A stretch of DNA of 47,764 nucleotides from Thermus brockianus (GTDB taxonomy: Bacteria; Deinococcota; Deinococci; Deinococcales; Thermaceae). Numbering within the stretch: position 1 is the stretch's first letter; each line of letters starts with the position of its first letter. The position numbers were made by a program, and so were the translations under genes. This document shows, in pieces, positions 38,791 through 41,705 of the stretch. Location of the stretch: assembly GCF_021462505.1 (NCBI RefSeq), contig NZ_JAKEDV010000006.1:124667-172430 (forward strand), given 5' to 3'. A model generated the notes under the pieces. It was not told the origin of the DNA, ran no database searches, and saw nothing but the letters and a program-made list of their open reading frames with translations.

Positions 38791-39699
38791 TTACTTGGCC
38801 TTGTCGTAGAGCTTCTTGGCGATCTCGTAGAGCTCGGCAGGGTGGAACTCGGGGGCGAACTCGGCGGCGTCGTGGCCGGCGTCAAACACCGGGCCGCCCG
38901 TGGGGGGGCCGTCCACCACCACCACCTCGCTCCCGTCCTCGGGGGAAGCCCCCTTCCAGATGAGGCCCAGGTCCTGGTAATCGGAGGGGCTAAAGCGGTA
39001 GAGGTTGCGGTGGAAGCCCAGGTCCATGTACTTCTTGGCCTCGGGGATCTTGCTGTTGTCAATCCGGGGGATGGGGAGCATCTTGGTCATCTCCACCCCG
39101 GTAAGGGTTTCCAGGGCCTTGCCGTAGGCGGCGGCGTGGACCCCACCCCGCACCAGGAGGTAACCGATCATCTCCCGGGCCACGGGGTTGTCCGTCATCT
39201 CGTAAACCCGCAGCTTGTGGGTACGGGCCGCCACCTCCAGGAAGAAGTTGTGGAGAAGGTCCAGGATGAGGTTGCCGCTGGTGAAGACGTACTCCCCGTT
39301 CCAGTACTCCCCCATGGCCCCCATCACCAGGGTGTTGGCACCCCCGGCGATGAAGTGGGCGGCGTTGCGGGCGTCCTTGGCGAAGCCCAGCGGGGCGCTC
39401 ACAGGGTCCACCCCTTCCTCCAGGTCCTTTCCGGGGTTCTTGGCCAGGAGGCTGTTGATGGTGGCGGAAACGAGCTCAATGTGCCCGAGCTCCTCCGTGG
39501 CGATGTTGGCGATGAGGTCGTAGTAGGGCTTGAGCGCCTTCTTCCCCCGGAAGTTGAAGGACTGGTACATGTAGTTCATCAGGGTGGACATCTCCCCGAA
39601 GCGCCCGCCAAGAAGCGCCTGCACCGCAGCGGCGGCGTTGGGGTCTTGCTCCTTGGGCATGGGCAGCTCAATCTGCAACCGGTCTATCCTCAGAAACAT
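38791..39699 (-). CDS. Manganese (non-heme) catalase
   Basis: The enzyme splits hydrogen peroxide at a dimanganese centre. At 302 aa it has the length of the known Thermus thermophilus manganese catalase. The ligands are in place: Glu 36 (RFGEMSTLMNY), Glu 70 and His 73 (NIATEELGHIEL), Glu near 150 (HNFFLEVAARTHKL region), and His near 188 (VRGGVHAAAYGKAL). I chose ATG 39699, which has AAAGGAGGTG a few bases upstream; the GTG six bases earlier lies inside that site. A GC-rich hairpin (39717-39734) lies in the leader. The gene is divergent from oxyR, with an OxyR-type operator between them. Confidence 0.96.
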   Translation of the reverse strand: MFLRIDRLQIELPMPKEQDPNAAAAVQALLGGRFGEMSTLMNYMYQSFNFRGKKALKPYYDLIANIATEELGHIELVSATINSLLAKNPGKDLEEGVDPVSAPLGFAKDARNAAHFIAGGANTLVMGAMGEYWNGEYVFTSGNLILDLLHNFFLEVAARTHKLRVYEMTDNPVAREMIGYLLVRGGVHAAAYGKALETLTGVEMTKMLPIPRIDNSKIPEAKKYMDLGFHRNLYRFSPSDYQDLGLIWKGASPEDGSEVVVVDGPPTGGPVFDAGHDAAEFAPEFHPAELYEIAKKLYDKAK

Positions 39700-39716
39700 A
39701 CCCACCTCCTTTGCCT

Positions 39717-39734
39717 GGGCGGGCTTTCCCGCCC
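39717..39734 (-). other. Hairpin in the leader of the manganese catalase mRNA
   Basis: GGGCGGG and CCCGCCC form a 7-bp perfect stem with a 4-base loop, 17 bases before the catalase start. A second stem, CCACCT/AGGTGG (39743-39759), lies further upstream. They may stabilise the mRNA or limit read-through; neither has a T-run. Confidence 0.45.
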
Positions 39735-39751
39735 GGCACCTTCCACCTTAG

Positions 39752-39779
39752 GCAGGTGGGATCTATAAGTCCAATAGAT
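39752..39779. promoter_or_regulatory. OxyR-type operator between the catalase gene and oxyR
   Basis: The core ATCTAT-AAGTCCA-ATAGAT (39761-39779) fits every fixed position of the central part of the E. coli OxyR consensus, ANCTAT-N7-ATAGNT. The left outer part (GCAGGT before GGG) also matches ATAGNT at three of five fixed positions; the right outer part matches poorly. It overlaps the likely promoter regions of both divergent genes. Confidence 0.7.
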
Positions 39780-39796
39780 TGTGCTTTCCCTTCCCA

Positions 39797-39802
39797 TAAA
39801 AT
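39797..39802 (+). promoter_or_regulatory. Putative -10 box (TAAAAT) of oxyR
   Basis: TAAAAT ends 6 nt before the oxyR ATG at 39809. Its -35 region would lie on the right half of the operator, which suggests self-regulation. Confidence 0.5.
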
Positions 39803-39808
39803 ATAGCT

Positions 39809-40765
39809 ATGAAGAAAGTCACCTTGGACCAGCTACGCTACCTCCTGGCCTTGGCCGAGGAGGGAAACTTCACCCGGGCAGCGGAGCGGGTGTACCTTAC
39901 CCAGCCCGCCCTGAGCGTCCAGATCCGCAAGCTGGAAGAAGCCTTGGGCGTGCGCCTCTTTGACCGCAGAAAGGGCAAGCCCACAGAGGTGGGACAAGCG
40001 GTGGTGGCCCAGGCGCGGCGGGTGCTAGAGGAGGTAGAGCGCCTAGAGGCCTTGGCCCGGGGGGAGGAAGGGGTATTCCAAGGACCCTTTCGTATCGGGG
40101 TCATCCCCACCCTGGCTCCCTACCTTCTCCCCCGCCTCCTCCCGCGGGTTATGGAAAAGCATCCGGCCCTCGAGGTGACGGTGCGGGAGGAGCTCACCCC
40201 GGGCATCCTTAGGGGCCTCGAGGAGGGCCATCTGGACGCCGGGCTTGTGGGCACAGAGGAAAGGGTACCGGGCCTCAAAGCCTACCCCCTCTTCACCGAG
40301 GCTTTCCTGGCCTACGTTTCCCCACGCCATCCCCTCTATGCCAAGGCGGCGCTCCATCCCCTGGAGATCCCGCTAGAGGACACCTGGGTGCTTTCCGAAG
40401 GCCACTGCTTCCGCGACCAGGTCCTTTCCGTCTGCCGGCCAAGCCTCCGGAAACGGGCCGTGGAGTTCCAAAGCGGGGACCTGGAAACCCTCATCCGCCT
40501 GGTGGAGGAGGTAGGGGGGCTTACCCTTCTGCCGGAGGTGGCCCTCTGGACCCTCCCTCCCGAGAAGCGGGCCCACCTAAGGCCCCTCCTTTTCCCCGGG
40601 GCCGGGCGCACCGTCTACCTCCTCCTCCGGGAGGGAAGCCTCAAGGCCCCGGTGGCCGAGGCCTTGGCGCGGGAAGCCCGGGAGGTCTTCACCGCCCTAC
40701 GCCTTTTTTCCACGGGGGAAGAAGGCGTTATGATGGGGGCGGAGGTTCGCCATGACCAAGCCTGA
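39809..40765 (+). CDS. oxyR: Peroxide-sensing LysR-type regulator OxyR
   Basis: OxyR is a LysR-type activator that senses H2O2 through a disulfide. The 318-aa protein has the N-terminal winged helix (LDQLRYLLALAEEGNFTRAAERVYLTQPALSVQI in its parts) and a C-terminal periplasmic-binding-like sensor. The decisive feature is EGHCFRDQVLSVC, with Cys 200 and Cys 209 at the same spacing and in the same context as the redox pair of E. coli OxyR. The ATG fits a leaderless promoter. The divergent manganese catalase is the obvious target. The gene overlaps ilvE by 14 bp, so the aminotransferase may be partly cotranscribed. Confidence 0.92.
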   Translation: MKKVTLDQLRYLLALAEEGNFTRAAERVYLTQPALSVQIRKLEEALGVRLFDRRKGKPTEVGQAVVAQARRVLEEVERLEALARGEEGVFQGPFRIGVIPTLAPYLLPRLLPRVMEKHPALEVTVREELTPGILRGLEEGHLDAGLVGTEERVPGLKAYPLFTEAFLAYVSPRHPLYAKAALHPLEIPLEDTWVLSEGHCFRDQVLSVCRPSLRKRAVEFQSGDLETLIRLVEEVGGLTLLPEVALWTLPPEKRAHLRPLLFPGAGRTVYLLLREGSLKAPVAEALAREAREVFTALRLFSTGEEGVMMGAEVRHDQA

Positions 40766-41705
40766 GGCCAAAGGCGGGGACGTGCACATCAAAGCGGGGC
40801 TTATCTGGATGAACGGGGCCTTGGTACCCCAGGAGGAGGCCAAGACCAGCGTTCTAAGCCACGCCCTGCACTATGGAACCAGCGTCTTTGAGGGCATCCG
40901 GGCCTACGAAACCCCCAAAGGCCCCGCCATCTTCCGCCTGAAGGAGCACGTGCGGCGCTTCTATAACTCCGCCAAGGTGCTCCGCATGGAAATCCCCTTC
41001 GCCCCCGAGGAGTTGGAGGAGGCCATCAAGGAGGTGGTGCGGCGAAACGGCTACAAAAGTTGCTACATCCGCCCCCTGGCCTGGATGGGGGCGAAGGCCT
41101 TGGGGGTAAACCCCCTGCCCAACAACCCGGCGGAGGTCATGGTGGCCGCCTGGGAGTGGGGAGCCTACTTGGGCGAGGAGGCGGTGCGGAAAGGGGCCAA
41201 GCTCATCACCAGCTCCTGGGCCCGTTTCCCCGCCAACGTGATGCCGGGCAAGGCCAAGGTGGGGGGGAACTACGTGAACTCCGCCCTGGCCAAGATGGAG
41301 GCGGTGGCCGCAGGGGCCGACGAGGCCCTCCTTCTGGACGAGGAGGGCTACGTGGCCGAGGGGAGCGGGGAGAACCTCTTCTTCGTGCGGGACGGGGTCA
41401 TCTACGCCCTGGAGCACTCGGTGAACCTCGAGGGCATCACCCGGGACACGGTGATCCGCCTCGCCAAGGACCTGGGCTACGAGGTCCAGGTGGTGCGGGC
41501 CACCCGCGACCAGCTCTACATGGCGGACGAGGTCTTCATGACGGGCACCGCCGCGGAGGTAACCCCCGTGTCCATGATTGACTGGCGCCCCATCGGCCAG
41601 GGCACCGCAGGGCCCATTGCCTTGCGCCTGCGGCAGGTCTATTTGGAGGTGGTGACGGGCAGGCGGCCCGAGTACGAGGGCTGGCTTACCTACGTCACTT
41701 CCTGA
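40752..41705 (+). CDS. ilvE: Branched-chain amino acid aminotransferase
   Basis: IlvE performs the last step of Ile, Leu and Val synthesis with pyridoxal phosphate. The 317-aa protein has the class IV aminotransferase marks: [15 protein letters not shown] near residue 40, [11 protein letters not shown] near 98, the PLP lysine in [16 protein letters not shown] near 167-181, and [11 protein letters not shown] near 208. The closing GYEGWLTYV region is normal. The known Thermus enzyme begins close to [11 protein letters not shown]; here ATG 40752 adds about ten residues and is supported by GGAGG just upstream, while GTG 40782 is the alternative. The 3' end overlaps convergent trmH by 11 bp. Confidence 0.96.

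Follow-up and report, generated by a model that had tools for sequence, protein, structure and literature searches.

We consider it rather probable that the 109-bp spacer between the manganese (Mn) catalase gene of Thermus brockianus and a divergently transcribed LysR-family gene holds a candidate operator for an OxyR-type, self-regulating catalase switch, in which a sliding dimer would act on a compact divergent promoter. The design is likely the familiar one of OxyR, here in a distant phylum and with a putative site that lies partly over the start codon of the sensor's own gene. Gene order, cysteines, conservation, registers, promoter spacing, co-occurrence of the genes and uniqueness of the operator in the genome are seen directly in the sequences of the window, by which we mean the whole 47,764-nucleotide stretch analysed, and of related genomes; OxyR binding, dimer sliding, activation and a leaderless start we infer.

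The catalase gene, the sole Mn catalase gene of this hot-spring bacterium, lies back-to-back with oxyR. Its reading frame (38791..39699, minus strand; ATG at 39699-39697) encodes a pseudocatalase that matches Pfam PF05067 with an E-value of 1.8e-75 and 254 bits, against a gathering score of 27, and its nearest solved chains are 2cwl and 2v8t, both from T. thermophilus; the reference DNA used in the family and structure searches lacked the first Met. The oxyR gene (39809..40765, plus strand) encodes a LysR helix-turn-helix domain (PF00126, 80 bits) and a LysR substrate-binding domain (PF03466, 139 bits). Its product contains two cysteines only, C200 and C209, which are nine residues apart in the motif GHCxRxQ and are kept in 16 of 16 aligned proteins, the exception being that of genome G017 (GHW). 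The solved structures nearest to the regulator are those of OxyR (4x6g, 6g1b, 6g4r and others). The two redox cysteines and the divergent Mn catalase, both part of the original prediction, are thereby confirmed. Although the NCBIfam OxyR equivalog NF008361 is the best-scoring family for the regulator, its 188 bits fall below the cut-off of 329, and we therefore call the protein OxyR-type rather than file it as an equivalog. It would be a putative DNA-binding redox sensor oxidised by H2O2. The last bases of oxyR (40752-40765) are shared with a branched-chain aminotransferase-like reading frame that begins there (40752-41705, named by eye). The C-terminal tail of the regulator reads through the ribosome-binding site of that gene, and its length differs among relatives.

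Both genes occur in 24 of the 27 genomes of the genus Thermus, always adjacent and divergent, and the other three, one of them only 65% complete, lack both. The ten Deinococcota genomes fetched from outside the genus all carry the divergent oxyR/Mn-catalase pair. Across 111 genomes of the phylum, an OxyR orthologue (E <= 1e-35) was found in 34 and the catalase (E <= 1e-60) in 35, including all 34 with the orthologue; the single mismatch, G109, has a catalase fragment only. Among 80 loci from the search of OxyR in other phyla, only the Meiothermus one has an Mn catalase beside it. A LysR neighbour was seen at one of the seven annotated loci of plasmid Mn catalases that were opened, and an eighth locus carries no gene annotation.

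The conserved feature of the spacer is a 15-bp island, ATAAGTCCAATAGAT (AT-N11-AT, 39765..39779), rather than a full dyad. It occupies positions p1-15, where p is the coordinate minus 39764, and is the proposed contact of the distal dimer in the reduced state. Over 32 sequences (34 without the distant G108 and without G011, whose sequence is that of the window), the information content is 1.2-2.0 bits per column within the island and below 0.4 in the eight bases directly to its left, and the island is asymmetric with sharp edges. When one mismatch is allowed, 22 of the 27 genus genomes have a single copy each, in every case the one in this spacer; the reversed-pattern control gave one match overall. 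Five genus genomes are without the island: G003 and G023, with two changes each, and the three in which neither gene occurs.

A candidate −35 element of the catalase promoter (TTGGAC, 39769..39774, minus strand) lies inside the island. In all 34 genomes, TTGGAC or a close variant is followed by TAnnnT, at a distance of 18 bp in 28 and 19 bp in six, and the corresponding −10 element in the window is TAAGGT (39745..39750, minus strand). By this spacing, transcription of the catalase gene is predicted to begin near p-26 (39738), where a conserved hairpin of the leader has its foot. Against this stands a plain sigma-70 scan, which at a level of 9 of 12 found no promoter; the core promoter of the catalase appears to be weak. 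For oxyR, the −10 element CATAAA (39795..39800, plus strand) holds a conserved position with the ATG at a fixed distance, and with xATAAA as close as eight bases to the ATG, oxyR is probably transcribed without a leader. The catalase leader contains a Shine-Dalgarno sequence (GGAGG, 39704..39711, minus strand) and, abutting it, a 5′-terminal stem-loop (39712..39738, minus strand) whose stem is recognisable, with different sequences, in 33 of 34 leaders. The stem is kept through two-sided base changes (GCCTGG/CCAGGC, GCCCGG/CCGGGC and GTCCGG/CCGGAC), with the caveats that the minimum-energy folds of G057 and G070 pair otherwise and that G108 differs. RNAalifold returned no consensus structure for the leader, which may possibly act as an mRNA stabiliser through its stem-loop.

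A second dyad, ATAA-N7-CTAT (39796..39810), spans the oxyR −10 element and start codon; it has the LysR form T-N11-A and, counted from the predicted start of the catalase transcript, lies at about −65, the usual recognition position of LysR regulators. T-N11-A is found in all 34 genomes, and the general form of the dyad is ATAA-N7-YTAT. YT precedes the oxyR ATG in 33 of 34 genomes; among the 24 ATAA-N9-ATG sites elsewhere in the genome, a hand count gave only three with YT. The inner pairs of the dyad are complementary in 8 of 34 genomes (positions 6-10) and 13 of 34 (positions 7-9). The second dyad alone is no proof of binding, since the −10 element and the ATG fix part of it and its innermost pairs are mostly non-complementary. 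Its centre is 31 bp from that of the island in 28 of 34 genomes and 30 bp in the other six. With the start site at its predicted position, the arrangement would fit the divergent LysR geometry, T-N11-A near −65 and a second site over the −35 element.

Read in the register of the E. coli consensus, the corrected candidate operator covers 39774..39810 with the half-sites ATAG, TTTC (degenerate), ATAA and CTAT. When the four E. coli half-sites were scored with 7-bp gaps (maximum 16), this register, which begins at p10, reached 12/16, the best in the window, with a mean of 9.7/16 over 34 genomes, and in 26 of them no register scored higher. In the other eight, either a slightly better register lies elsewhere (G003 and G023, 10 versus 9) or the second dyad is one base closer (six genomes). 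A second scoring, in which the middle gap could be 6 or 7, covered 10 of the 34 genomes with 1000 shuffles each; the p10 register was best in all ten, and its score was reached by 0 to 187 of the 1000 shuffles. The window's own genome (G000) scored 12/16 (11/1000 shuffles) and G021 13/16 (1/1000), and G108, the most distant member of the Deinococcota, whose OxyR is 44-46% identical, scored 14/16 (0/1000), whereas G063 (187/1000), G001 (101/1000) and G071 (90/1000) are non-significant alone. A full set of four ATAG-type half-sites in steps of about 10 bp was not found in the window, where three of the four are present; half-site 2 of the consensus is missing, with a 34-genome mean of 0.76 of 4, and only G108 is near-complete. 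At OxyR loci of other phyla, scored without shuffles over the 160 bases before the oxyR start or just past it, 14 of 79 reach at least 13/16 and one reaches 16/16.

The corrected operator exists as a single exact copy in the genome. Taken with the near-perfect co-occurrence of oxyR and catalase, this makes the system look like a one-promoter, self-regulating peroxide switch. A wider OxyR regulon is unsupported, as a search of the genome with up to two mismatches gave one other match, the same as the reversed control, and exact GTCCAATAG sites number seven in the genome (three of which look intergenic), fewer than the ten of the control.

In the mechanism that we propose, one OxyR dimer would sit on ATAA-N7-YTAT (39796-39810), across the −10 element and start codon of oxyR, and would therefore limit the expression of oxyR itself. 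The other dimer would be mobile. In the reduced state it would rest one turn of the helix further out, on the island (39765-39779), covering the catalase −35 element. Oxidation of C200 and C209 by H2O2 would shift it towards oxyR, to positions 39774-39779 (ATAGAT) and 39785-39788 (the degenerate half-site), which would free the −35 element and set OxyR beside RNA polymerase at the weak catalase promoter. Negative self-control and H2O2-induced catalase would be the predicted outcome. The distance to the second dyad is 22 (or 21) bp for the ATAG register at p10 and 31 or 30 bp for the AT-N11-AT of the island, so that the island could serve both dimer positions with the −35 element between them; that all 15 of its bases are kept would be explained by this dual use, which is our main inference.

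The main rival, which we regard as unlikely, is that OxyR is a repressor only: the reduced protein on the island would block the catalase −35 element, and oxidation would release it without any activation. Such a reading gains from the fact that conservation is strongest in an element with the catalase −35 hexamer at its centre, a repressing position, but it sits less easily with a core promoter as weak as that of the catalase (TTGGAC/TAnnnT at 18-19 bp, with no promoter from the scan at a level of 9 of 12), which suits activation, and with a second dyad near the usual LysR recognition position of −65. Also in favour of the repressor reading, the OxyR of Deinococcus radiodurans has been reported to act as a repressor too (PMC2225504). 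Less probable still is that there is no operator at all, the island being the catalase −35 element with its flanks and the second dyad simply the oxyR −10 element plus ATG. GTCCAATAG also occurs without variation (21 of 21 found) in the spacer between aceE and a different LysR gene divergent from it, and the core may thus be a promoter element. However, conservation in the catalase spacer reaches ATAA and TAGAT outside the hexamer, the bases YT precede the ATG far more consistently (33/34) than at other ATAA-N9-ATG sites (3/24), and both G108 and an alphaproteobacterial locus, described below, fit the E. coli register at the same place.

A further alternative concerns the register. The original prediction had placed the operator at 39752-39779, with ATCTAT-N7-ATAGAT as the central half-site pair. 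The dyad itself is genuine: ATCTATAAGTCCAATAGAT at 39761-39779 contains the sole exact ATCTAT-N7-ATAGAT in the window, and none of 100 dinucleotide shuffles has one. However, no more than 6 of 34 genomes (two of the six from the same species) have the left-arm CTAT, against 26 of 34 for the right-arm ATAG (p10-13), so that the left arm looks largely fortuitous; p-1 and p0, the bases that complete it, are not conserved. As an operator, 39752-39779 scores 11/16 in the window with a mean of 8.2/16 over the 34 genomes, compared with 12/16 and 9.7/16 for 39774-39810, and its outer half-sites are unconserved, averaging 1.0 and 0.8 of 4. A symmetric OxyR site there, centred on CTAT-N7-ATAG, is accordingly very improbable, exact as the dyad is in the window. 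The cross-genome comparison does support the remainder of that idea, namely a conserved element between the divergent genes and a promoter overlap that predicts self-regulation. By the sequence comparison, the first proposal is right in kind and wrong in register, placed about 22 bp too far towards catalase. Another perfect dyad, CCACCT-N5-AGGTGG (39743-39759), over the catalase −10 element, is unconserved in relatives and probably due to chance.

Several observations count against the proposed switch: the missing half-site 2, the genomes that are non-significant alone, the better fit of G003 and G023 elsewhere with 7-bp gaps, the share of the second dyad that the −10 element and the ATG account for, the negative sigma-70 scan, the regulator's score below the NCBIfam cut-off, and the persistence of the catalase where OxyR is broken (G008, G024) or lacks its first redox cysteine (G017). 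The oxyR gene of G008 carries a 1.2-kb insert at about codon 194, just before the redox loop, with a 374-codon reverse reading frame (L027/L033), that of G024 (L028) has frameshifts, and in G017 (L016) the first redox cysteine is replaced by Trp (GHW for GHC). Catalase and island are intact in all three despite these lesions. The OxyR of G016 has an altered C-terminus. An assembly error is possible behind any of the lesions in these four genomes.

The second LysR gene mentioned above (L002, G000:C19:177253-177300; orthologues L098-L117 and L029-L031) is divergent from a pyruvate-dehydrogenase-E1-like gene, identified by eye as aceE. The layout is the same: GTCCAATAG is followed by GATAAG-N5-CTTATC over the LysR gene's own −10 element and start. 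Of the 24 examined, three gave no match. The pair is present in G009 and G013, both of which lack oxyR. A more far-reaching reading of the whole, which we put forward only tentatively and hold to be somewhat doubtful, is that the two-cysteine OxyR of the Deinococcota is inherited only with Mn catalase and has two targets, the catalase promoter and that of its own gene, that the island encodes both dimer positions of the redox slide with the −35 element between them and the second site lies in the leaderless start codon of oxyR, and that the LysR/aceE pair of the same genomes uses this layout for another purpose.

An OxyR-catalase operator of Thermus was not found in the literature searched. 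In E. coli, reduced OxyR contacts two pairs of grooves one helical turn apart and the oxidised protein four adjacent grooves (PMC3953959). For LysR regulators in general, a fixed recognition site is described, next to which one dimer moves between two activation sites (PMC11739112). The Thermus system shares with E. coli OxyR the fold of the LysR family, a pair of cysteines nine residues apart, half-sites of the ATAG type that recur every 22 bp, the spacing of the redox shift and, as predicted, self-regulation, but differs in that half-site 2 is degenerate, the likely target is an Mn catalase, the operator is single-copy in this genome and the site runs into the start codon of a probably leaderless oxyR. 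The D. radiodurans OxyR (DR0615) is likewise a LysR-family peroxide sensor, from the same phylum, but has one redox cysteine, and for the genes that it represses the authors report no obvious E. coli-like sites (PMC2225504). The Mn catalase KatN of EHEC is also promoted by OxyR (together with RpoS); there, however, RpoS is essential and katN is not induced by H2O2 (PMC5363993). A related layout is that of the alphaproteobacterial plasmid p1 of Geminicoccaceae SCSIO 64248 (CP122394.1), where an OxyR-type gene and an Mn catalase gene are divergent and the operator, with a complete CTAT-N7-ATAG-N7-CTAT (13/16), ends in the regulator's start codon, although the regulator is 35% identical and the Thermus island is not seen there.

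In T. thermophilus HB27, Hg(II), which poisons thiols, raises the pseudocatalase (pcat) transcript 107-fold, and neither OxyR nor LysR occurs in the text searched (PMC6445937). The proposed OxyR switch suggests a candidate cause for this strong induction. The OxyR that has been studied in this phylum carries one cysteine and lacks a recognised site, and the spacer would supply a two-cysteine OxyR with a candidate operator ready for footprinting. In addition, the small thermostable system, with one likely target, may serve to follow the redox shift of OxyR on DNA.
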